Below, in pieces: positions 2,734 to 13,472 of a stretch of 13,472 bases of DNA. The translations under genes were made by a program, and so were the position numbers. Where the stretch lies: the NCBI GenBank assembly GCA_015485455.1, contig WFTN01000251.1:1-13472 (forward strand). The letters run 5' to 3'. Under the pieces are notes generated by a model that had not been told where the DNA came from, ran no database searches, and saw only the letters and a program-made list of their open reading frames with translations. Every line of letters starts with the position of its first letter. The first letter of the stretch is position 1. Origin of the DNA: Planctomycetota bacterium. GTDB lineage: Bacteria > Planctomycetota > GCA-002687715 > DRQF01.

Positions 2734-2784
2734 CATCGGTGAATGAACTGTCGAGAGATCTTTCACCCCTGTTTGGACTCATTC

Positions 2785-3600
2785 ATGCGTCAACTCCTCG
2801 TTTTGGTGGTCCTGTCTTTTTGTGGTTGTGCCACCTCTCCCCAAAGTTCTTCCACTCACGGCCCCTTGGTCATCGTCGGAGGAGGCGGCACACCTACCTC
2901 CGTGGTCAGAAAAGCAATCGAACTCGCCGGTGGCCGCAAAGCCATCGTCGCTGTCTTACCGCAGGCCAGCAATCGTAAGAGCAGGGGGCAAGAATCAAGG
3001 GAGATGTTCTTAGCTGAAGGTGCCCAAACCGCCTTTATTGTCCGTGATCTAAACTCCCCAGAAGCTAAGAACAAGATCCAGACTGCAACGCTGATCTGGA
3101 TGCCCGGCGGCAGCCAAAACCAACTGATGGAAAGCATCAGAAATGCGGGATTGGGAGCAACTTTGTTGGCAATGCACACCCAGGGCGTCGTATTCGGCGG
3201 AACCAGTGCCGGGGCCGCCGTCCAATCACAACTTATGATCACCGGTGAGGCTGAGCTTAGGGCGATTCTCCCGGAAAGAACCAAATTGGCCCCCGGGTTA
3301 GGCCTCATCACAGGCGCCATCATCGACCAGCACGCCATTAAGAGGCGACGTTTCAACCGTCTCCTCTCCGCCGTTCTTGATCACCCCAAACGAGTCGGTA
3401 TTGCCATCGACGAAAAAACAGCAGTTATCTTCCAAAACGAGAGTTTTGAGGTTATGGGAGAAAGTACAGTACTCGTCATTGATGCCCGCAACTCCCTGTC
3501 CATGACCCCAGAAAGCCAGAAGCCCCACGGAGCAAGGAACATCATGCTCCATGTGCTTCGTCCGGGAATGTCATACGATTTCGAGAATCATGGAAGATGA
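2785..3600 (+). CDS. Cyanophycinase-like serine peptidase (family S51), probable lipoprotein
   Basis: Cyanophycinases cleave cyanophycin (multi-L-arginyl-poly-L-aspartate) to beta-Asp-Arg dipeptides with a catalytic Ser. From the ATG at 2785 the product is 271 aa, close to CphB. It begins MRQLLVLVVLSFCGC, a short basic start, hydrophobic stretch and Cys at 15 that look like a lipoprotein signal, although the residue at -3 is Phe rather than Leu. Family marks are VIVGGGGTPT (29-38), WMPGGSQ (105-111), the nucleophile elbow GGTSAGA with Ser141 (138-144), APGLGLITGAIIDQH with His183 (169-183), and GIAIDEKTA (205-213). An upstream ATG at 2743 is in frame, but it would put 14 polar residues ahead of the signal and lacks a clear ribosome site. 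The gene lies 81 bp after deaD, possibly with its own promoter. Activity on other beta-linked or small peptides is possible, since S51 also contains alpha-aspartyl dipeptidase. Confidence 0.87.
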   Translation: MRQLLVLVVLSFCGCATSPQSSSTHGPLVIVGGGGTPTSVVRKAIELAGGRKAIVAVLPQASNRKSRGQESREMFLAEGAQTAFIVRDLNSPEAKNKIQTATLIWMPGGSQNQLMESIRNAGLGATLLAMHTQGVVFGGTSAGAAVQSQLMITGEAELRAILPERTKLAPGLGLITGAIIDQHAIKRRRFNRLLSAVLDHPKRVGIAIDEKTAVIFQNESFEVMGESTVLVIDARNSLSMTPESQKPHGARNIMLHVLRPGMSYDFENHGR

Positions 3601-3668: not shown

Positions 3669-3798
3669 TCAGGTGCGTCGTATCACTCACCGCGTGAGAA
3701 CCATGGCGTCCGTGGAAGGGATAGAAATATGGGATTACATGGGGCCACAAGGCCAAGAGTAGCATGGTAGTCACCTCAGACTCCCATGAGGAAAAGCT

Positions 3799-4884
3799 AT
3801 GAGATTGATTTTGCATGTGGGACTCCTCTTCCTTGCTGCTATGAGCGGCCACCTAAACGCCCAAAAATCCTCTTCGTCGCTCACTACGGCCAAAGTAATT
3901 TTGGCGAAGCCCATAAGGCTGAAGGCAGATGGCAAGCTGATCGACTCAGCAGCGTTCCGCTCCCACAGTGGGCCGGCGATCTACGACATCAATCACGACG
4001 GTTTGGACGACTTAGTCGTCGGCAACTACAAAGGCCATTTTCAGGTCTACTTGAACATCAAAAGTAATAAAGAGCCTGAGTACAAAGGTGCTGGCTTACT
4101 CAAAGCCAAGGGCAAGGTCATCAAACTCAATAATTGGTGATGTATTGGTCTCAATCCGCAGTTTGCGGATCTCAACGGCGATGGCATCAAAGATCTCTTC
4201 ACTGGATGTTTCGAAGGAGTGATCTATCTCCTTCAGGGTCAAGAAGACGGAAGCTTTTCCCCAGCCAAACCACTCCTCAACAAATCTGGCAAACGCCTCA
4301 TGTTGGGCCAATATTGGGACTACTCCCTTAAACGATGGAACAACAACCAGGGGCCGTTTCGATCAATCATTGGCATAAGCGTCACCGCCGTTGATTGGGA
4401 CCAAGATGGAGACCTGGACCTCCTACTCGGAGGTTACGACGGCAGCATGCACCTCTGTGAGAACGTCGGAAGTAAATCGAATCCGCGATTCAACGATGCG
4501 TCCACTTCTGTCATGACCGGAAAAACTCCCTTGATCATCAAAGGTGCCCACGGGATTCCCGAGGTAGCCGATTGGGATGGCGATGGGAAATTTGATCTCA
4601 TCAGTGGAAGTGGCGATGGCGGCGTTGTTTGGTTCCGCAATATCGGGACTGTAAAAGCCCCCACTTTCACGACCGCCCAAACAATCATCAATCAGCCAAA
4701 TGGCAAGAAACTCGGCGAGAAACACCCGGGAACCAGAACACAGGTTCATGTGGTTGATTTCGACCACGACGGAGACTTAGACCTCCTTGTCGGCGACTAC
4801 GGCAAGCGAACGATGTCAGACGGCAGCCAAAGTTCCCATGGCTGGGTCTGGCTATACAAGCGGCAAGAGGCGTCAAAGAAATAG
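3799..4884 (+). CDS. Secreted FG-GAP/VCBS beta-propeller protein with in-frame TGA (candidate selenoprotein)
   Basis: The reading frame gives 361 residues if the TGA at codon 114 (4138-4140) is read through; otherwise it stops after 113. A clear ribosome site, GAGG at 3788-3791, lies 7 nt before the ATG at 3799. Residues 1-21 are a signal peptide ending LNA before Gln22, so the protein is exported. Five calcium-loop repeats of type D-x-N/D-x-D-G-x-x-D follow: 63-71, 124-132, 199-207, 258-266 and 320-328, each followed by short beta strands, as in a beta-propeller or VCBS protein. The TGA sits between repeats 1 and 2, in NNW-TGA-CIGLNPQFAD. The downstream part has no ribosome site or signal of its own, and its repeats are intact, so it is not a separate gene. 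As I recall, relatives in Planctomycetota-type genomes have a Cys-Cys-Val/Ile-Gly motif here, which would place selenocysteine at the first Cys. Pseudogene or sequence error is the alternative. Binding partner and function are unknown. Confidence 0.75.
4138..4170 (+). promoter_or_regulatory. Candidate bacterial SECIS element (TGA plus downstream hairpin)
   Basis: The TGA at 4138-4140 is followed after 13 nt by a perfect 7-bp stem: ATCCGCA (4154-4160) pairs with TGCGGAT (4164-4170) around the loop GTT (4161-4163). If the last A-T pair opens, the loop is AGTTT. Bacterial SECIS elements are stem-loops within the coding sequence just after the UGA, with a G early in the apical loop that lies roughly 16-37 nt from the UGA; here the loop starts 21 nt downstream. 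The pairing depends on synonymous choices (CCG, GCG), but the encoded Pro-Gln-Phe-Ala-Asp is also a natural propeller motif, so chance is possible. No selB, selA or tRNA-Sec gene is in the window. Confidence 0.45.
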
Positions 4885-4931: not shown

Positions 4932-6086
4932 ATGAAATCCAAGTCCTGTTTTTCGATGAACCCAGATCCTTATCGAGCCGGACTTGAGATTGGCGAATCC
5001 TTGGCGGCCATCAACCCTGAGATCGTTTTTCTCTTCTCATCGATTCACTTCGACGGCTCAGACGAACTTTCTGAGGCGATCTATGAAGTGTTAGGCAACG
5101 ACGACCTCATCTTGATCGGTTGCACGAGCGACGGATGCTTTGAGCGTGAACTTTGCTCTCAAGCCAGGTCGACGGCCATTGGCATCAACAGTGAAGGACA
5201 ATGCCAGTGGGTCATCCATCACCAGCACAACATTGGTGAACATCCCTACGAATCAACTCAGCTTTGCGTCAAAAGAATCATGGCCCAGTGCGGTGGCGCA
5301 ACGCCAAAATTTGCTTTTTTCACCACAGATTTTCGAACCGACACCTGCTTGATCGCCGAAGCTCTTGAAGAAGCTCTCACTTTTCCCGTCGTCGGAGGAT
5401 CCGCCGGAGATGACAACCAGTTGCTGAGGTCTTTTGTCTATGTCAACCGCCGGGTATTCGAGGACACTATCGTCATGGTCGCCGCAGTCGGCGCTATCAA
5501 CTTCGACATTCGCGTTGCCAAAGACATGCTATTCGTCGGACGGCCAGCCCGCATTACTGCTTGTGAGGGCACTTTGCTCAAGAAGATCGATGGTCTTGAT
5601 GCTATGGAGTTCGTTGAGCGAGAAATCGGTAAGCCAGTCGAATCCATCGACAAAGGTGTTCTTAATCTCCTGCTCACAGATAACTCAGGAGATAGCACAA
5701 TTCGCTCGGTTCTTCTTCCGGAAGACAAGTTCGATGAAACATCAGTGCGACTCTTCGCAAAGGCCCGAGAAGGAGACATGATTCAACTTTGTTTCTCGCC
5801 CCCCGAGACGCTCCTTCAGAACATGGCGGAGACCTGCAAAGACATTTCTTCTCTTCCTTTCAAACCAACTGCCGCTATTGTCACCAGTTGCTCTGGGCGG
5901 CAGCTGGTCCTCGGTGACGCCATTTCGCAAGAATTCAAGCTCATCCTGGAACACTGCCCGAGTTTAGAGGCCATGGCCGGCTTTCCTTCTTTCGGAGAAT
6001 TCGCACCTTCCAAGGTCTCTCCCAGCAAGACCCTCTTCCACAACATGACGTCGGTTGTCCTACTTCTTTCGGGAGAATCGGCATGA
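4932..6086 (+). CDS. FIST N and C domain sensor protein
   Basis: FIST proteins are cytoplasmic or membrane-linked sensory modules proposed to bind small ligands, possibly amino acids, and to feed signalling proteins. This 384-residue product is a stand-alone FIST with no signal peptide or membrane helix. Family features in order: IGCTSDG (62-68), the FPVVGGSAGDD turn (151-161) ending the FIST_N half, GRPARIT (203-209) at the start of FIST_C, TSCSGR (318-323), the GFPSFGEFAP loop (350-359) and FHNMTSVVLLL (369-379), the standard FIST_C ending. The ATG at 4932 is 47 bp after the FG-GAP gene; only a weak GAGAG lies upstream, and an ATG at 4956 is a less likely alternative. The stop overlaps the start of the next gene by 4 bp (ATGA), so the two are almost surely co-translated and the FIST protein is the likely ligand-sensing partner of that kinase. 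It is rich in Cys (about 11), unusual enough to note, though no metal motif is clear. Confidence 0.9.
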   Translation: MKSKSCFSMNPDPYRAGLEIGESLAAINPEIVFLFSSIHFDGSDELSEAIYEVLGNDDLILIGCTSDGCFERELCSQARSTAIGINSEGQCQWVIHHQHNIGEHPYESTQLCVKRIMAQCGGATPKFAFFTTDFRTDTCLIAEALEEALTFPVVGGSAGDDNQLLRSFVYVNRRVFEDTIVMVAAVGAINFDIRVAKDMLFVGRPARITACEGTLLKKIDGLDAMEFVEREIGKPVESIDKGVLNLLLTDNSGDSTIRSVLLPEDKFDETSVRLFAKAREGDMIQLCFSPPETLLQNMAETCKDISSLPFKPTAAIVTSCSGRQLVLGDAISQEFKLILEHCPSLEAMAGFPSFGEFAPSKVSPSKTLFHNMTSVVLLLSGESA

Positions 6087-8452
6087 CTCAGTTCTTCAGC
6101 ATTGGTCGCAAGACGCCTCCCGGTTTTGACCCAACCCGGCCGACGAAACGCATGCTACTCACTGGAGTCATCACCCTTCATTGTGACGATTTGGAACAGG
6201 CATACACCCTTCTTCCCGAATTCATCAGTCGCGTGCAAGGCATCGTGTTAACTCAAGGCAGGAAGTTCAGCCAGGAGTTTATCAGCGAGCAACTCGTTCA
6301 TCTTCAATTACCTGGCCATTTGATGCCGGAGGCTTCCTCATTAGCTCAAGCTACAATGGAACTCATGAGTGATCGCCAGATCGCTTTAGACCACAGCAAG
6401 AACATGAGCATTGAGTTAACGAGGCTTCAAGACGCCCTTAGTCGGACAAAGCGGAGCTACAACGACAACATGGACCGGCTGATCATGCGTGCAAATGAAA
6501 TTAACCGCATGTTCGAGTTGTCTATGATTGGTAGTTTTCGCACCAATCTCGCGGGCAAGCTCATTTTAGCCAACCCAGCCCTCTTGAAGATCATCGGCTA
6601 CGAATCCTTGGAAGCACTCAACCAAGTCGGCGTTCGTGAGACTTACCAGAATCCTGAGGACAGACAAAAGCTCACCTCCATGGCTCTTGAGGCCCCAGTC
6701 TCTTCTTTCGAAACGACCCTCATTCGGGGCGACGGGATGCCAGTCGATGTCCTCTTGAGCGCCTATGTGGTGAATGGAGACAATGGCGAGCCCCGCTTTC
6801 TGGAAGGCAATATGATCAACCACACCGCAAGAAAAAAGGCGATGGAAGATCTCCGGCAAGCCAATCTCACCTTGGAGCATGAACGCAATATGTTCATTGG
6901 CGGCCCCGTAGTCGTCTTCAATTGGAGGAATGCTGAGAGTTGGCCAGTTACTTATGTATCGCCCAATGTGGAGGATGTGTTCGGATATACCCCAGCAGAA
7001 CTTCTTTCCGGTGAAATACATTATTCCTCTCTCATTCATGCTGGAGACCAAGAAAGGGTAAGCATCGAAGTAGCCCATGGCATTCAGGCGAAAGGCAGCA
7101 GTTTCTCGCATCAGCCCTACCGCATTCTCCGCAAAGATGGGCAAACAATTTGGATCGATGACTTTACCACGATCCTTTGGGATGAGAACGGCAATGCCAC
7201 TCATTTCTTGGGCTACGTCGTCGACATCACCAAGCGCATCGATGCTGCAGCCGAGAAGGAATCTTTAGAGAGGCAGCTTCAACATGCCCAGAAGCTGGAG
7301 AGTCTGGGCGTCTTGGCTGGGGGGATTGCCCATGACTTCAACAATTTGCTCATGGCGATACTTGGCAATGCTGACCTAGTCTTGGAGGAGCTAAAACCCG
7401 ATGCCCCCTCTTACCCTATGGTCAAGGAAATTGGCCGAGCGTCCATGCGCGCCGCAGACCTTGCCAAACAAATGTTGGCCTACTCAGGCAGAGGTCGATT
7501 CGTCTTGGAGACCATTGACGCCAGCCGACTCTTGGAGGAGATGGGAAACATCTTAGAGATTACCATCTCAAGAAACGTCACCCTCAAATTCAATCTAAAC
7601 CCTCAGATTCCCACGTTCGAAGGCGACGCAACCCAGGTCCGCCAAGTCGTGATGAATCTCATCACCAATGCCGCAGAGTCCATTGGAAACGACCTTGGAG
7701 ATGTAACCCTGTCGACCGGACAAAGTTTTTGCGATCGACAATTCTTCGAAACCAAGAGCAACACACTCTGGCTCTTAGCCGAAAGAAAGATGCCAGAGAA
7801 GACCTACGTCTTCATTGAAGTGCAAGATACAGGATGTGGCATGGATCGGCCCACAATGGACAAGATTTTCGACCCATTCTTCACCACAAAGTTCACCGGT
7901 AGGGGGTTGGGGATGTCCGCGGTCTTGGGCATCATCCGAGGACATAAGGGTGCGATTGAAGTCGAGAGTACCTGTGGCGTCGGCACTACATTCCGTATCT
8001 ACTTCCCTGTTGCCAAGACAGCAGCCTCCCCAGCACGCCAAGGCGTCAAATCTACCCACGACAATTCGCCTTGGCGTGGAGAAGGTACAGTACTCGTGGT
8101 TGACGATGAAAAAACAGTATTGACAGTCGCAGCTGGTATGTTGGATTGTTTGGGATTCAAGTCGGTGACCGCAAGCTCGGGTGAGCTTGCAACTGAGATC
8201 GTTCGTGAAGGCAAGCAGGAGTTTTCTTGTGTCCTTCTCGATTTAACGATGCCCAAGATGAACGGAGCCGAAACTTTTCGGGCCATGAGGAAAATCAATC
8301 CGCGCCTGAAGATAGTCCTTTGCAGTGGCTACAGTCAGCAAGATGCCACCAAAGAGTTCGCCGATTTGGGACTCGCCGATTTCCTGCAAAAACCATACTC
8401 CTTAGCCCGCCTGCGGGGAACACTGCGTCGCCTCAATGCCAAGTCAACTTAG
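6083..8452 (+). CDS. PAS-domain hybrid sensor histidine kinase with C-terminal receiver
   Basis: This 789-residue kinase autophosphorylates on His and passes phosphate to its own receiver. No membrane segment is visible, so it is cytoplasmic. Layout: an N-terminal region of about 110 residues that I cannot assign, a coiled coil (about 110-150), PAS 1 (about 155-275, FELSMIGSFRTNLAGKLILAN), PAS 2 with PAC (about 285-395, VSPNVEDVFGYTPAEL and FLGYVVDITKR), a DHp H-box LAGGIAHDFNNLL with His417, and the ATPase domain with N-box NLITNAAES (Asn529), DTGCGM (582-587), FDPFFTTK and GRGLGMSAV. The receiver starts near 667 with Asp674-Asp675, phosphoacceptor Asp720 in LLDLTMPKM and Lys770 in LQKP. The H-box and G-boxes are typical of hybrid kinases in the HPK4/NtrB-like style. 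Its start overlaps the FIST stop (ATGA) with GGGAGAA 5 nt upstream, indicating translational coupling. No output domain or regulator follows; it ends 50 bp from the convergent cheR. Confidence 0.93.
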   Translation: MTQFFSIGRKTPPGFDPTRPTKRMLLTGVITLHCDDLEQAYTLLPEFISRVQGIVLTQGRKFSQEFISEQLVHLQLPGHLMPEASSLAQATMELMSDRQIALDHSKNMSIELTRLQDALSRTKRSYNDNMDRLIMRANEINRMFELSMIGSFRTNLAGKLILANPALLKIIGYESLEALNQVGVRETYQNPEDRQKLTSMALEAPVSSFETTLIRGDGMPVDVLLSAYVVNGDNGEPRFLEGNMINHTARKKAMEDLRQANLTLEHERNMFIGGPVVVFNWRNAESWPVTYVSPNVEDVFGYTPAELLSGEIHYSSLIHAGDQERVSIEVAHGIQAKGSSFSHQPYRILRKDGQTIWIDDFTTILWDENGNATHFLGYVVDITKRIDAAAEKESLERQLQHAQKLESLGVLAGGIAHDFNNLLMAILGNADLVLEELKPDAPSYPMVKEIGRASMRAADLAKQMLAYSGRGRFVLETIDASRLLEEMGNILEITISRNVTLKFNLNPQIPTFEGDATQVRQVVMNLITNAAESIGNDLGDVTLSTGQSFCDRQFFETKSNTLWLLAERKMPEKTYVFIEVQDTGCGMDRPTMDKIFDPFFTTKFTGRGLGMSAVLGIIRGHKGAIEVESTCGVGTTFRIYFPVAKTAASPARQGVKSTHDNSPWRGEGTVLVVDDEKTVLTVAAGMLDCLGFKSVTASSGELATEIVREGKQEFSCVLLDLTMPKMNGAETFRAMRKINPRLKIVLCSGYSQQDATKEFADLGLADFLQKPYSLARLRGTLRRLNAKST

Positions 8453-8502: not shown

Positions 8503-9312
8503 CTACTTCACTTGGTAGGCGCCAGATCCTAAGGATTCCACCGCTGCTCCCAGGCTAGCTGGTATCTCCCCTCCACCGACGAAGAAATACCCACCGGGGC
8601 CCAATAGTCGCATGAGGTTGTCCAAGATCTTCTTCTTTGTCTCCACATCAAAGTAGATCAAGACATTGCGAATAAAAACGACATCTGGCTTGGGCAAACG
8701 GGGCCATGGACGAACAAGATTGAGCTGGGAGAATTTGACCATAGAGACGATTTCCTGAGATAGGTGCCAATTGACACCATTCTGTTTGAAAAACCGACTT
8801 TTGAGACTTGGAGGTAAACCCCGGCGCAATTCCACGTCCGAATAGACTCCACTTTTGCACCGTTCGATCATCTGAGAGGATATATCTGTTGCCTCGAATT
8901 CAACTTTCCAATTCGCCAACGCTGGAAATTTGTCCTTGATGATCATGCAAACGCTGAAGGGTTCCTGGCCACTCGATGCGGCAGCGCACCAAATGCGGAG
9001 ACTTTTCTTGTCGCTATTCTTCTCGATGATCTTGGGGAGGACCTTCTCTTCGAAGACTTTGAATGGAGCATTGTCCCGAAAGAAATAGGTTTCATTGACC
9101 ATAAGTTGATCAACAACCTTGTCAGCCAACTCTGAAAACGGGCGACGAATAAGCGTATTCATCAACTCGTCAACAGATTCATAGCCATCTTCTTTGCAGA
9201 TGATTTGAAGGCGCGTCTCCACGAAATAGTTTTTGCTATCGTCGAGGACCATGCCGGTTCTTTCACGGATAAACTCCCGTACCGCCACGAAATTGGATTT
9301 AGTAGTCGCCAT
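8503..9312 (-). CDS. cheR: CheR-type chemoreceptor glutamate methyltransferase
   Basis: CheR uses S-adenosylmethionine to methylate glutamates on chemoreceptors, giving adaptation together with CheB. The 269-residue product has the helical CheR N domain (1-70), the hallmark NETYFFRD (73-80), the SAM-binding motif WCAAASSGQEPFS (108-120), ATDIS with Asp143 (141-145), GVYSDVELRRGLP (155-167) and the catalytic-domain signature NVLIYF (216-221). The SAM loop reads SSGQEP where most CheR have STGEEP, a mild variant. It is the last gene of the operon; only 6 bp separate it from cheB, and its ribosome site (GAGAGGTTAA on the minus strand) overlaps the cheB stop. Downstream, 50 bp separate it from the convergent kinase gene; I see no strong hairpin terminator there. 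There is no C-terminal TPR extension, so it is the minimal, classical form. Confidence 0.95.
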   Translation of the reverse strand: MATTKSNFVAVREFIRERTGMVLDDSKNYFVETRLQIICKEDGYESVDELMNTLIRRPFSELADKVVDQLMVNETYFFRDNAPFKVFEEKVLPKIIEKNSDKKSLRIWCAAASSGQEPFSVCMIIKDKFPALANWKVEFEATDISSQMIERCKSGVYSDVELRRGLPPSLKSRFFKQNGVNWHLSQEIVSMVKFSQLNLVRPWPRLPKPDVVFIRNVLIYFDVETKKKILDNLMRLLGPGGYFFVGGGEIPASLGAAVESLGSGAYQVK

Positions 9313-9318
9313 TTCGAA

Positions 9319-10515
9319 TTAACCTCTCAAACCTACAGGACGTCTTTGTACTGTCATGATAATATCACTAGCGATTTGCTCTAAGGGCAAGACGCGATCA
9401 CTTCCGTTTGCTTTAGTGATTGCACCAGGCATCCCCCAAACAACACTGCTTTCCTCATCCTGCGCAATAACACGCCCACCCGCATCACGAACAGCCAAAG
9501 AACCAATCATCGCATCACACCCCATGCCCGTAAGGACAACGGACAGAACATTCCCGCCGAATACTTTCACAACGCTCCTGAGCATTGGGTCAGCGGCAGG
9601 CCGGCAAAAATTCTCGGCTGGCCCATCATCTGGTTTCGCAACCACGTGAACCCCTTGCCGTTCCACCAAAAGATGACGATCTCCTGTGGGAAAGTAGATC
9701 GTTCCAGCCTTAATCGGGGTAGCCTCTTTCACTTCCAGCACTTCAAGAGGACAATCTCGAACGAAACGTTCCACAAGTTTGCTGGCAAAATTCGAGGGGA
9801 TGTGTTGGGTGATAACAATGGGAATTGGAAGAGTCGCGGGCAGAGCTTTAAGGACAATTGACAAAGCATTCGGGCCTCCCGTGGAAGACGAAATGGCAAC
9901 AATGTCGAATGATCCTGATTTCGTTCTTCTCCCTGCTGGGCTTGAGGCTGTGTTCGAAGCAGATGCACTTGAAGGGGACTTCTTCTTCGCTGGGCTTCGA
10001 TCCCTGCGATCCTTCGTTGCCGGGCGCGATTTTCGAATCAACGTGCGCCGAACGGGAGTCTCCCCTCGCCGACCTCGCTTAGAAACGGCAGCTCGCCCCC
10101 CTTGGGCTTGACCATACAGCCGCCGGATTTTGGGAACCAGCTCTCGTTCCATGGCCGACATGGCTTCAATCCGTTCTTTCCCGGCGACGGGCTTACAAAC
10201 ACATTCGTTTGCTCCCAAAGTTAAGGCCTCGAACGTTTGCTTGGAGCCTTTTTCTGTCAGGCTAGAGAACATGATAACAGGCAAAGAGGGCCACCGTTTT
10301 CGAATGAGCGGTAATGCCTCAAGCCCACTCATCTCTGGCATCTCAATATCCAAGATAACAACGTCTGGGTTGTATTTTTCGATGGCTTCGATGCCCAAAA
10401 GCCCATTGGCTCCAGTTCCACAAACACGAATCTCTTTGTCGGAGGAAACGACCGCACGGAGTAAGTTCCGCATGACAGTTGAATCGTCAATTAGCAGGAC
10501 GTTAATCATATTCAT
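9319..10515 (-). CDS. cheB: CheB-type protein-glutamate methylesterase/deamidase
   Basis: CheB removes receptor methyl esters and deamidates glutamines, and is activated by CheA phosphorylation. From the ATG at 10515 the product is 398 aa: a receiver domain (about 1-120) with Asp10-Asp11, phosphoacceptor Asp56 in VVILDIEMPEM and Lys in CVCKP; a long linker (about 135-203); and the methylesterase domain with catalytic Ser in ISSSTGGP (about 211), His in TQHIPSNFA (about 238) and Asp in LTGMGCDAM. The linker of about 65-70 residues is very rich in Arg, Lys, Ser and Ala, longer and more basic than in enteric CheB. A TTG five codons upstream is in frame, but the ATG at 10515 is preferred: GAGGTG (10528-10523) lies 7 nt before it and the phosphoacceptor then falls at 56 as in the enteric protein. 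It lies about 49 bp after the MCP gene and 6 bp before cheR. Confidence 0.95.
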   Translation of the reverse strand: MNMINVLLIDDSTVMRNLLRAVVSSDKEIRVCGTGANGLLGIEAIEKYNPDVVILDIEMPEMSGLEALPLIRKRWPSLPVIMFSSLTEKGSKQTFEALTLGANECVCKPVAGKERIEAMSAMERELVPKIRRLYGQAQGGRAAVSKRGRRGETPVRRTLIRKSRPATKDRRDRSPAKKKSPSSASASNTASSPAGRRTKSGSFDIVAISSSTGGPNALSIVLKALPATLPIPIVITQHIPSNFASKLVERFVRDCPLEVLEVKEATPIKAGTIYFPTGDRHLLVERQGVHVVAKPDDGPAENFCRPAADPMLRSVVKVFGGNVLSVVLTGMGCDAMIGSLAVRDAGGRVIAQDEESSVVWGMPGAITKANGSDRVLPLEQIASDIIMTVQRRPVGLRG

Positions 10516-10564
10516 GAGACGACACCTCAAACAAAATTCTAAATGCGGCCCAAGGCGCCACTGG

Positions 10565-12331
10565 CTACTTCAATCTAAAACCCGCGAGCAAAGCGTTGAG
10601 GTCATTTGCGAGGGCCGTCATAGCCTTCACCCTCTCCTGATTGCTCTCCGCTAACCGTTGGGTTTGTGTTGCACCATCTGCAACACTGGCAATATTCTCA
10701 GCGATCTCTGATGTTTGCACCGCCGCATCAGAAATGCTATTGCCGATCTCGTTGGCTGTGGCTGTTTGCTCCTCAACCGCCGAAGCAATGTTATTCTGAA
10801 TATCGCTAATTTCGTCAATGATGAGAGAAATACTCTCAATCGCCTGAACTGCTCTATCTGTATCGGATTGAATGGCGTCAATTTTAACAGAAATTTCTTC
10901 TGTTGCCATGGCGGTCTCTCTTGCCAGGTCTTTGACCTCACTGGCAACAACGGCAAAACCCTTGCCAGCCTCACCCGCGCGAGCAGCCTCAATAGTTGCA
11001 TTGAGAGCAAGAAGATTGGTTTGTTGGGCGATGGAGGTGATCGTACTCACGACCTTTCCGATGTCGACGCTACTCGCTCCCAGCTTCTTCACCGTGGTGT
11101 TCGTGTCCTCGGCTACCACAACTGCATTATTGGCAACTCTTGCTGCCTCCGTCGTATTGCGAGAGATTTCTTTGATGCTAGCCCCAAGTTCCTCTATGCC
11201 CGCCGCAACGGTCTCTACGCTCCGACTAATCTCAATACTCGCTGTCGACACAGAGGAAGCTCGATCAGATGTCTCCGTAGCGTTGCGTTCAACTTGCTGC
11301 GTTGAGCCCGACATCTTATCTACAGATCCAACCAACGTCCCGGAAGACTTAGAGATGTCTGCCAAGCTCCCGCGAATCGTTGCAAGAAAGTTATCGAATC
11401 CCCGAGCGATCCGGTCAACAACGCCATCGCCCTTGGATCCAATCGAACCCCGCAAATCGCCAGATTTTGCAGCCGACACGACGAGAAGAGTCTCTTTCGC
11501 CTTCTTCTGAGCAGCAATGTCATTGCGTCTCTGCTCAGCCACCTCTGACCATTTAACCGAACGACTTAAGACTGCAGAACTCATATGCTCTACTGTTTCT
11601 GTGACCGCGGCACTGAGTTCACTCATCTCTCGGCTCGAGTGGCTGTCCAGAGACACAGAAAGATCGCCGCCGCCCACCAGCTTGATAACTCTAACCGCAT
11701 CCTGAACGCTGTGAGAAATTCGCTTGGCTACAAAGATTCCAGTGAAAATGGCTAGTGAGCTAAAGAAGAGAGCAATGACAGCGTTCCAGATACCAAGGGC
11801 AACAAGGTCCTCTTCTCCCATGGTCTGAAGTCGATGGAGACCATCTTGGGCGCAAACAACAAATCGCGCGGCTGCATCTCGAAGAGTTTTCTCAGCCTTC
11901 CCAACCGCCTCTGATCCATTTTTCTTGTCTAACTTCGTGAGCCCGCGTGCAGCCTTTTCCAACTCATCCAAGGTTGTGACTTGGTCTTGGAAGAGCGAAA
12001 CAAGATCACTATCGACAGGATCGACATCAACGTCATCCTCACCGACTTTTATTGCGCCACCGTTGAGAAGCAGGTCAACATTCCTGCGGATATCCGACGC
12101 TGCACTTTCAATAGCGCGACTACTCCCAGAACCCCCGCTCAGAGCCTCAGCCTGAAGAAGATTGCCAAGCGCACTTTGATCTGCTGCCACGCGAATTCGG
12201 ACCGAGTCGGCCTCCGCCTCCCGGATTTCGAGAGTTATTTCCCCTAACGACAAGGCAAAACCGATCAATGCGACAATAGCAATAGCGAAGATTTGCTGAG
12301 AAATTCTAAGCTGAGAAAAAAAATTAGTCAT
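10565..12331 (-). CDS. Methyl-accepting chemotaxis protein (transmembrane chemoreceptor)
   Basis: This 588-residue receptor detects a stimulus outside the inner membrane and controls CheA through CheW. It has a short cytoplasmic start, TM1 (about 11-31), a periplasmic domain of about 145 residues (32-177) that is mostly helical with an acidic loop ([14 protein letters not shown], 96-109), TM2 (about 178-202), a HAMP domain (about 203-256), a second HAMP-like segment (about 282-320, [18 protein letters not shown]), then the long coiled-coil signalling domain. The conserved hairpin tip [21 protein letters not shown] is at 434-454 and [15 protein letters not shown] follows. I do not recognise the ligand-binding domain beyond a helical-bundle type. 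The C-terminus (AGFRLK) lacks the NWETF-like CheR tether. AAGG on the minus strand lies 7 nt before the ATG. It sits 27 bp after cheW. A run of eight T in codons 3-6 is a possible slippage site. Confidence 0.95.
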
Positions 12332-12358
12332 CCAAGAACCTTAGCCCCATCTGTGTAA

Positions 12359-12793
12359 TTAGGATTCGATGCTCACGGCTTTATCCTTATCCAGGACCAA
12401 GAGCAGATCTTTCTCAAGTTTGTAGGTACCAACAATGAGTTCACGCATATCGTCGGCCAAGGTCTCTGGAGGCTCTTCAAAATCCTCAGCCCCCACCTCA
12501 ACGACGTCACCGATCTCATCGACGAGAAGGCTAAATAATTCGCCATCTGATCGAACAACAACGTTCATAGGTCGTCCCTTGGCCAAAGGTCCAAGGTTAA
12601 GACGAGTCCTCAAATCCAGCGTCGTCACGATCTCTCCTCGAAGATTCATGAGTCCGGTCACGACCTTGGGAGAACATGGAACAGGAGTTGATTCATGGTG
12701 CAAGATGACCTCTTGGATATCCAAGACATCAACACCCAAGAGCAGATCATCTACTCGAAAGGAACAAAGTTGTTTCTTGTCATTGACCAACAT
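12359..12793 (-). CDS. cheW: CheW coupling protein
   Basis: CheW is the small SH3-like adaptor that joins receptor tips to CheA in the chemosensory array. The 144-residue product is a single CheW domain: CSFRVDDLLLGVDVLDIQEV (10-29) for the first strands, the conserved GLMNLRGEIVTTLDLR turn (47-62), NVVVRSDGELFSLLVDEIGDVVEV in the middle and a closing strand GTYKLEKDLLLVLD. Length is usual for CheW. It follows the cheA stop by only 2 bp (TAA-AC-ATG) with GAGGT as ribosome site inside the end of cheA, so translation is coupled. Its tip-binding surface seems complete. It could also serve other receptors in the genome, but the gene order ties it to the neighbouring CheA and MCP. Confidence 0.95.
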   Translation of the reverse strand: MLVNDKKQLCSFRVDDLLLGVDVLDIQEVILHHESTPVPCSPKVVTGLMNLRGEIVTTLDLRTRLNLGPLAKGRPMNVVVRSDGELFSLLVDEIGDVVEVGAEDFEEPPETLADDMRELIVGTYKLEKDLLLVLDKDKAVSIES

Positions 12794-12795
12794 GT

Positions 12796-13472
12796 TTAGA
12801 CCTCACACAATTGTGGCTTAGAATCCAACAAACTTGGAGCCAACATGCCCACAATTTCATCCAGATCCAATAACTCTGTAATCGTATCGTCGATAACGAT
12901 GGCACCGCGAACACCTTGCCTCTTCGATCCTTCGTCGAGTTCAATGCGTACATCGAGAACATCAACAATGCGTTCGACAACGAGACCAATACTCTTCTCT
13001 CCAACCTCGTAGACAATGACGTAAACCGTCTCTGCCTCTTCTTCGCCTTCTTCCCAGTTGCCGAAGGAGCAACCGATAGCGTCGGCGACTTTGAAGAGCG
13101 GCATGATACCACCGCGATACTGCAAGACTTCTTGGTTCCCCGTCATCTCTATGTTCGACTTGAGAGTCTCTTCGATGCGGGCCACCTCGCGCAATTCCAT
13201 TGCCAAAGGTGCAGAGCAACCGGTTTCAACCACCAAGACCGGAACTGCTGGTCCCCGAGAGTCTTCAGAGTCAATGATTTTCTTGGTGGCGGCAATGGCC
13301 TCGCCGACTTCACCCAAGAGGCCAGCAATTCGTGCCAGGCCCGTAACGTCCAAGATCAATGCCACCTGACCGTCGCCGAGAATAGTAGCTCCGGCATAGT
13401 GTGGCATACCACTGAGTTGCTTACTCAAGGGCTTCACCACAATTTCAATGCTGTCCCGGACCTCCCCAACAA
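12796..13472 (-). CDS. cheA: CheA histidine kinase, C-terminal part (end of P5 plus an extra CheW-like domain)
   Basis: Only the last 225 codons are in the window; the frame is open to the right edge, so the GTG at 13440 is not the start. The visible part begins in the end of the P5 regulatory domain, with IEIVVKPL and the very typical GATILGDGQVALILDVTGLA. After a linker of about 20 residues a second CheW-like domain follows: PVLVVETG at its start, ELREVARIEETL, EVLQYRGGIMPLFKVADAI (the usual R-G-x-x-x-P-L turn), VYVIVYEVGEKSIGLVVERIVDV, and GAIVIDDTITELLDLDEIV at its end. CheA is the array's ATP-dependent kinase, phosphorylating CheB and CheY-type receivers. The tandem CheW-like ending is known in some CheA classes and would give an extra interface for CheW or another P5 in the array rings. 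P1 to P4, including the phosphorylated His and the ATP site, are outside the window. Confidence 0.92.
   Translation of the reverse strand, partial: VGEVRDSIEIVVKPLSKQLSGMPHYAGATILGDGQVALILDVTGLARIAGLLGEVGEAIAATKKIIDSEDSRGPAVPVLVVETGCSAPLAMELREVARIEETLKSNIEMTGNQEVLQYRGGIMPLFKVADAIGCSFGNWEEGEEEAETVYVIVYEVGEKSIGLVVERIVDVLDVRIELDEGSKRQGVRGAIVIDDTITELLDLDEIVGMLAPSLLDSKPQLCEV

Follow-up and report, generated by a model that had tools for sequence, protein, structure and literature searches.

The window, the whole 13,472-nucleotide stretch of Planctomycetota DNA analysed here (contig WFTN01000251.1), carries on its plus strand a single open frame of 361 codons (3799-4884) whose sole interruption is a TGA at codon 114 (4138-4140). 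Judged from comparison with related sequences, this frame is very probably a genuine selenoprotein gene complete with its selenocysteine insertion sequence (SECIS), the TGA being read as selenocysteine (Sec). A preliminary description, made from the DNA letters alone, had claimed a frame with a ribosome site, a signal-peptide-like N-terminus and five calcium-loop repeats, broken only by the TGA, and all of these were seen in or just ahead of 3799-4884. The parts of the gene, with their strength of assignment, are as follows.

3788 to 3793, plus strand: Shine-Dalgarno-like GAGGAA preceding the ATG, read from the sequence (GAGG at 3788-3791)
3799 to 4884, plus strand: very probable FG-GAP/VCBS propeller selenoprotein gene, 361 residues, Sec at 114, stop codon TAG
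3799 to 3861, plus strand: signal-peptide-like N-terminus, residues 1-21, assigned by eye from a hydrophobic stretch
3985 to 4011, plus strand: calcium-loop repeat 1, residues 63-71
4138 to 4140, plus strand: TGA very probably read as Sec, residue 114 (TGA at the aligned column in 80 of 84 matches in the phylum)
4141 to 4143, plus strand: Cys 115 (TGT), partner of the Sec (Cys codon after the TGA in 79 of 80 phylum genes)
4154 to 4170, plus strand: bacterial SECIS-like hairpin, arms 4154-4159 and 4165-4170, apical loop 4160-4164 (AGUUU)
4168 to 4194, plus strand: calcium-loop repeat 2, residues 124-132
4393 to 4419, plus strand: calcium-loop repeat 3, residues 199-207
4570 to 4596, plus strand: calcium-loop repeat 4, residues 258-266
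4756 to 4782, plus strand: calcium-loop repeat 5, residues 320-328

The five calcium loops are of a D-x-[DN]-x-D-G-x-x-D-like form, and the protein matched two Pfam families over their cut-offs, FG-GAP_3 (E = 1.7e-24) and FG-GAP (E = 1.5e-14). Its signal-peptide-like N-terminus suggests that it is apparently exported. A similar hydrophobic N-terminal segment was detected by a simple hydrophobicity rule in 61 of the 70 phylum Sec genes whose 5' end could be read. The structure model, computed from a six-row alignment (pLDDT 79.2, pTM 0.81), contained five sheets by strand order and a helix at residues 8-19, a region of low confidence. The predicted fold is a five-bladed beta-propeller, with the Sec-Cys pair predicted to sit just ahead of the first strand of blade 2.

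Conservation of the TGA was followed with the read-through protein as query. When 59 relatives were searched, 37 genomes matched and all 28 places at E <= 1e-30 carried one in-frame TGA. A profile built from a 21-row alignment (A1; 20 Sec forms and one Cys form) was then applied to 199 genomes of the phylum at E <= 1e-25, giving 84 places in 62 genomes. The codon at the aligned site was TGA in 80 of these and Cys in two (L166 and L186). The other two (L225 and L226) were non-family matches and were dropped, as was an upstream non-family FG-GAP stretch of L037. Recurrence of TGA at one codon in 80 of 84 matches is far above chance. TGA genes of the family occurred in 59 of the 199 genomes, in up to three copies each, and the following codon was TGC or TGT in 79 of the 80 genes and CGC in one. 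In a collection of named genomes, L037 to L040 read TGA-TGC and L041 reads TGC-TGC; the three closest named homologs (L037 to L039) are all Planctomycetota records. In alignment A1 the only invariant Cys-type columns were the Sec and its following Cys, the pair being kept in all 21 rows (20 Sec-Cys, one Cys-Cys). Two divergent members, L201 and L221, have extra Cys residues near the pair (FC-Sec-CCG and GCV-Sec-C), and in G158, a genome of two contigs, two TGA family genes (L216 and L218) lie in tandem.

In all 68 of the 80 phylum Sec genes whose stop falls within the fetched DNA, the frame continued for at least 213 codons past the TGA. Between the window gene and its same-genus counterpart pn/ps was 0.29/0.73 before the TGA and 0.21/0.81 after it, with synonymous sites near saturation; these values indicate that purifying selection acts on both sides of the codon. 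TGA is also used as an ordinary stop, ending the neighbouring gene 2743-3600 and the FIST gene (ATGA overlap at 6083-6086), and it is the terminal stop in 31 of 75 family genes (the fetched DNA reached the stop in 75 of the 87 genes read, Cys forms included). Global reassignment of TGA was rejected on these grounds. The preliminary description had foreseen much of this: it had argued against an old pseudogene and against a genome-wide reassignment, had pointed to the TGT codon that would complete a Sec-Cys pair, and had proposed looking for the TGA in several related genomes. Each of these points held.

In a Verrucomicrobiota sample of 194 genomes, drawn around genome G202, four gave matches at E <= 1e-25: TGA is present in those of G202 and G383 (the latter partial), whilst those of G340 and G284, both partial, lack it. 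The family is common in the phylum sample (59/199 with TGA) and rare in the Verrucomicrobiota sample (2/194). The G383 gene (L256), read by eye, has TGA-TGT and the same hairpin; its frame of 1174 codons is possibly a multidomain form.

The hairpin lies 19 nt after the TGA in the window gene. The 45 nt from the TGA align without gaps, and 79 distinct sequences out of 84 were kept after removal of five exact duplicates. Columns 17-22 and 28-33 form the stem, which closes a five-base loop; paired cells made up 93.0%, with double-sided changes in four of the six pairs. The observed value was reached by 0 of 500 shuffles on four of five measures and by 6 of 500 on the fifth (pair types), whilst sliding the partner lowered pairing to 30-45%. 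RNAalifold, run unaided, proposed the central four pairs. The most telling covariation within the stem is between the wobble base of a Pro codon and the second base of a Val/Ala codon, CCA occurring with GTG and CCG mostly with GCG (A-U 57, G-C 17, G-U 3, C-U 2, A-C 0). The third base of that Val/Ala codon was G in 82 of 83 genes, compared with 40% of Val/Ala codons in the same open reading frames (ORFs), and in 76 of 83 genes the folding energy of the 45-nt segment lay below the average for synonymous resamples. The alignment indicates that the hairpin region is under synonymous-site constraint.

According to a 2026 review (PMC13188914), a bacterial SECIS (bSECIS) has a loop of 3-9 nt, a G at one of the first two loop positions, a distance of 16-37 nt from the UGA and a minimum free energy (MFE) of -7.5 or below. 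The window hairpin fits this model, with its AGUUU loop, 19 nt spacing and -9.7 kcal/mol over 45 nt from the TGA. The core rules as coded in this analysis (core stem, early G, MFE) held in 78 of 84 Sec genes, and the stem was broken in all three Cys homologs.

These three homologs without TGA (L041, L166 and L186) all hold Cys at the Sec position, in the motifs CCVSFVPQ, CCIGFTPQ and CCVGAQPR, which come close to the CC[IV]G..P motif named in the preliminary description. That text had also looked to Cys at position 114 in most homologs. Every non-TGA homolog did have Cys there, but across the searched genomes Sec is what the family usually carries and Cys is exceptional. Divergent Cys forms may be under-counted, because the profile drew on 20 Sec forms and a single Cys form. 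In a tree of 85 rows with a midpoint root (short Sec rows L223 and L224 left out), the Cys forms sit in three separate places and their branches force three label changes. On a simple reading, Sec would have been converted to Cys three times and the hairpin lost on each occasion; as the root was placed at the midpoint, the changes may also have come in another order.

Presence of the TGA gene was associated with Sec machinery. SelB was found over its cut-off in 56 of the 59 TGA-gene genomes, against 78 of the remaining 140 (Fisher p = 7e-9, uncorrected for kinship), and among the three TGA genomes without a SelB match tRNA-Sec was found in G149 and G152. tRNA-Sec was likewise present in the genomes of L038, L039 and L040 and was not found for L041, a Cys form; in G182 (one contig, 99% complete), where the gene is again a Cys form, SelB and tRNA-Sec are both absent. 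The search of the window's own genome for Sec machinery, which the preliminary description had suggested, yielded a fragment of SelB, whilst SelA, SelD and tRNA-Sec were not found, so that the full case rests on relatives. The SelB fragment runs off a contig end, scored 283.8 bits (cut-off 242) and is 80% identical to the same-genus SelB; in both genomes SelB has an aminotransferase gene next to it, and these two genes share their best NCBIfam match. In the same-genus genome SelB is present, and SelD lies immediately next to a tRNA-Sec whose anticodon is UCA. The Sec insertion route looks like the ordinary bacterial one.

Some machinery matches were set aside. Six tRNA-Sec model matches in the window's own genome (31-40 bits) fell below the cut-off and were assigned by ARAGORN to Ser (four), Cys and Tyr. 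Over the cut-off, tRNA-Sec was found in 48 of the 59 first relatives; this count was not used because weaker matches (47-60 bits) may be other tRNAs. Three SelB-like matches each were seen in G021, G043 and G143, compared with one in most genomes; one of those in G043 lies just below the cut-off and one in G143 is a fragment.

Several observations weigh against a Sec-decoding gene. The own assembly is 77% complete in 614 contigs, and at that completeness it is unlikely (about 1%) that SelA, SelD and tRNA-Sec, taken as independent genes, would all be missing by chance. Because SelD adjoins tRNA-Sec in the same-genus genome, a single lost stretch could account for two of these three gaps; the search for SelA covered the own genome and no relative. 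G135 has a TGA gene with no SelB match and no tRNA-Sec found at E <= 1e-9, no tRNA-Sec was found at the same threshold in the genome of L037 (a TGA form), and G188 carries a Cys form although both SelB and tRNA-Sec are present. In one TGA gene (L220) the neighbouring Cys is missing, and six of the 84 Sec genes each depart from the SECIS rules in one point (four without the early G, two with one mismatch). In the hairpin controls, the shuffles leave some relatedness and the slides keep the bias of a structure drawn from these same sequences. The L220 gene (G010:C58), where the TGA is followed by CGC (Arg), lies on a long branch and perhaps has another function or is in early decay.

These points have to be set against what other explanations would demand. 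If the gene were a pseudogene or a sequencing error, with TGA a real stop and the downstream part decaying or misassembled, the single incomplete assembly behind the window and the failure to find most of the Sec machinery in it would be readily understood. However, 80 of 84 matches share the TGA at this codon, the hairpin covaries and purifying selection appears to act on both sides of the TGA. Conservation of the TGA across many families of the phylum refutes this explanation, and we give it practically no weight. Equally negligible is the chance of two separate proteins, a 113-residue product ending at the TGA and a downstream ORF starting from GTG 4219: both ORFs exist mechanically, but the 26 codons from the TGA to 4219, with the conserved UCIG..PQF.D.N.DG..D motif, would fall in neither product, and the SECIS-like hairpin comes after the TGA. 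Decoding of the TGA as Trp, Cys or Gly, through reassignment or a suppressor, is highly improbable, if slightly less so. It would accord with the lack of a detected tRNA-Sec in the own assembly and with Cys as the residue in the three non-TGA homologs, whereas neighbouring genes and 31 of 75 family genes with a readable stop still end in TGA, the SECIS-like hairpin accompanies TGA forms and is broken in Cys forms, and the TGA gene is associated with SelB and tRNA-Sec.

A different alternative accepts the selenoprotein and disputes its chemistry: the Sec-Cys pair would bind metals or metalloids (mercury, copper, arsenic) or trap selenium, without redox turnover. In the review, the families in Table 1 with CU, GxUC or UxxU motifs include mercury- and metal-related proteins (PMC13188914), and no recurrent redox partner gene appeared when 78 neighbour proteins at 20 loci were scanned. 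Against such binding, the 21-row alignment offers one invariant Cys besides the Sec, and no invariant His or Met except the start. We regard this alternative as a minority prospect, doubtful yet well ahead of the other three. The wider neighbourhood showed no Pfam family in more than four loci (78 of 211 ORFs from a simple gene caller scanned, at 20 of 84 loci).

Taken together, our results strongly favour a selenoprotein made as follows. The gene at 3799-4884 would encode an exported five-bladed FG-GAP beta-propeller. SelB and tRNA-Sec would read the TGA at 4138-4140 as Sec, helped by the SECIS hairpin at 4154-4170, a step for which the comparative evidence is strong. The product would then bear a Sec-Cys pair, predicted to lie just before the first strand of blade 2. 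Most likely the pair forms a reversible vicinal selenenylsulfide and acts as the redox centre of a thiol or peroxide oxidoreductase outside the cytoplasm, two linked proposals that we hold jointly at about even odds. It is similarly a balanced question whether the genes found in the window's phylum, and in at least two genomes of the Verrucomicrobiota sample, make up a widespread, undescribed class of exported selenoenzymes, in which a five-bladed calcium-loop propeller would carry a vicinal Sec-Cys redox pair and perform selenium-dependent redox chemistry outside the cytoplasm.

Bacterial bSECIS selenoproteins such as FdhA and SelD have in common with the window family an in-frame TGA, Sec/Cys exchange among homologs and an association with SelB and tRNA-Sec. 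They also share the downstream hairpin with a G in its apical loop, at 16-37 nt in the review (PMC13188914), where most characterised selenoproteins are said to have a thioredoxin-like fold. Unlike the bSECIS selenoproteins listed, to go by their names, the window family is a predicted propeller, and across the searched genomes it has far more Sec than Cys forms. With the FG-GAP/VCBS propellers (integrin alpha heads, CRTAC1, ITFG2) the window protein shares FG-GAP Pfam families; its sequence profile matched ITFG2 (2e-7), CRTAC1 (1.9e-6) and integrin alpha-4 (3.1e-6), and the top Foldseek match was CRTAC1 (9etn_A, E = 1.1e-7), with a TM-score of only 0.43. Integrin heads have seven blades, whereas five are predicted here. 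We know of no FG-GAP/VCBS propeller among integrin alpha, CRTAC1 and ITFG2 that carries Sec, nor, to our knowledge, is a five-bladed calcium-loop propeller scaffold known to use selenium. The GH62/GH43 glycosidases are five-bladed propellers and resemble the window protein in fold, at 11% identity; this similarity was not taken as function and no glycosidase claim is made. For the pair itself, PQQ methanol dehydrogenase, a vicinal-disulfide propeller, and mammalian thioredoxin reductase, which has Cys-Sec, offer adjacent chalcogens able to form an eight-membered ring, as the Sec-Cys pair could. The order in the reductase is the reverse of that in the window family, and the proteins are apparently unrelated.

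The family, scaffold and motif are new to the sources checked, in keeping with the earlier remark that no selenoprotein of this extracellular family was known. No FG-GAP or propeller family appears by name among the 119 prokaryotic selenoprotein families of Table 1 in the review (PMC13188914), and no NCBIfam family (June 2026) matched the window protein at E <= 0.001. Literature searches, covering few subscription papers and no bioRxiv, gave nothing linking selenoproteins or selenocysteine to FG-GAP or VCBS, the matches being unrelated by title and abstract. A 2016 study reported selenoproteins in two planctomycetes (PMC4807772), and the family could be listed among its candidates. The deep-Sep authors note that selenoproteins without Cys homologs may be filtered out (PMC12013277), and the few Cys homologs found here may be why the family was missed. 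Standard gene calling stops at the TGA and would split such genes. The family adds to the selenoproteins of prokaryotes, with a scaffold unlike the thioredoxin-like folds that are usual among them, and the role of selenium on an exported propeller becomes directly testable.

In the rest of the window, a scan for promoters and terminators gave results near chance and Rfam had no match at gathering scores. Directly upstream of the selenoprotein gene lies a cyanophycinase gene (2743-3600), over the TIGR02069 cut-off and with a lipoprotein-like N-terminus by eye. At 4932-8452 a gene for a FIST-domain protein, with a weak NosP match below the cut-off, overlaps by ATGA a hybrid histidine kinase gene with PAS-like and receiver-like parts; the two are likely a sensor pair. 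On the minus strand, 8503-13440 holds a chemotaxis-like cluster with CheR-, CheB-, methyl-accepting- and two CheW-like genes, named by eye from their translations.
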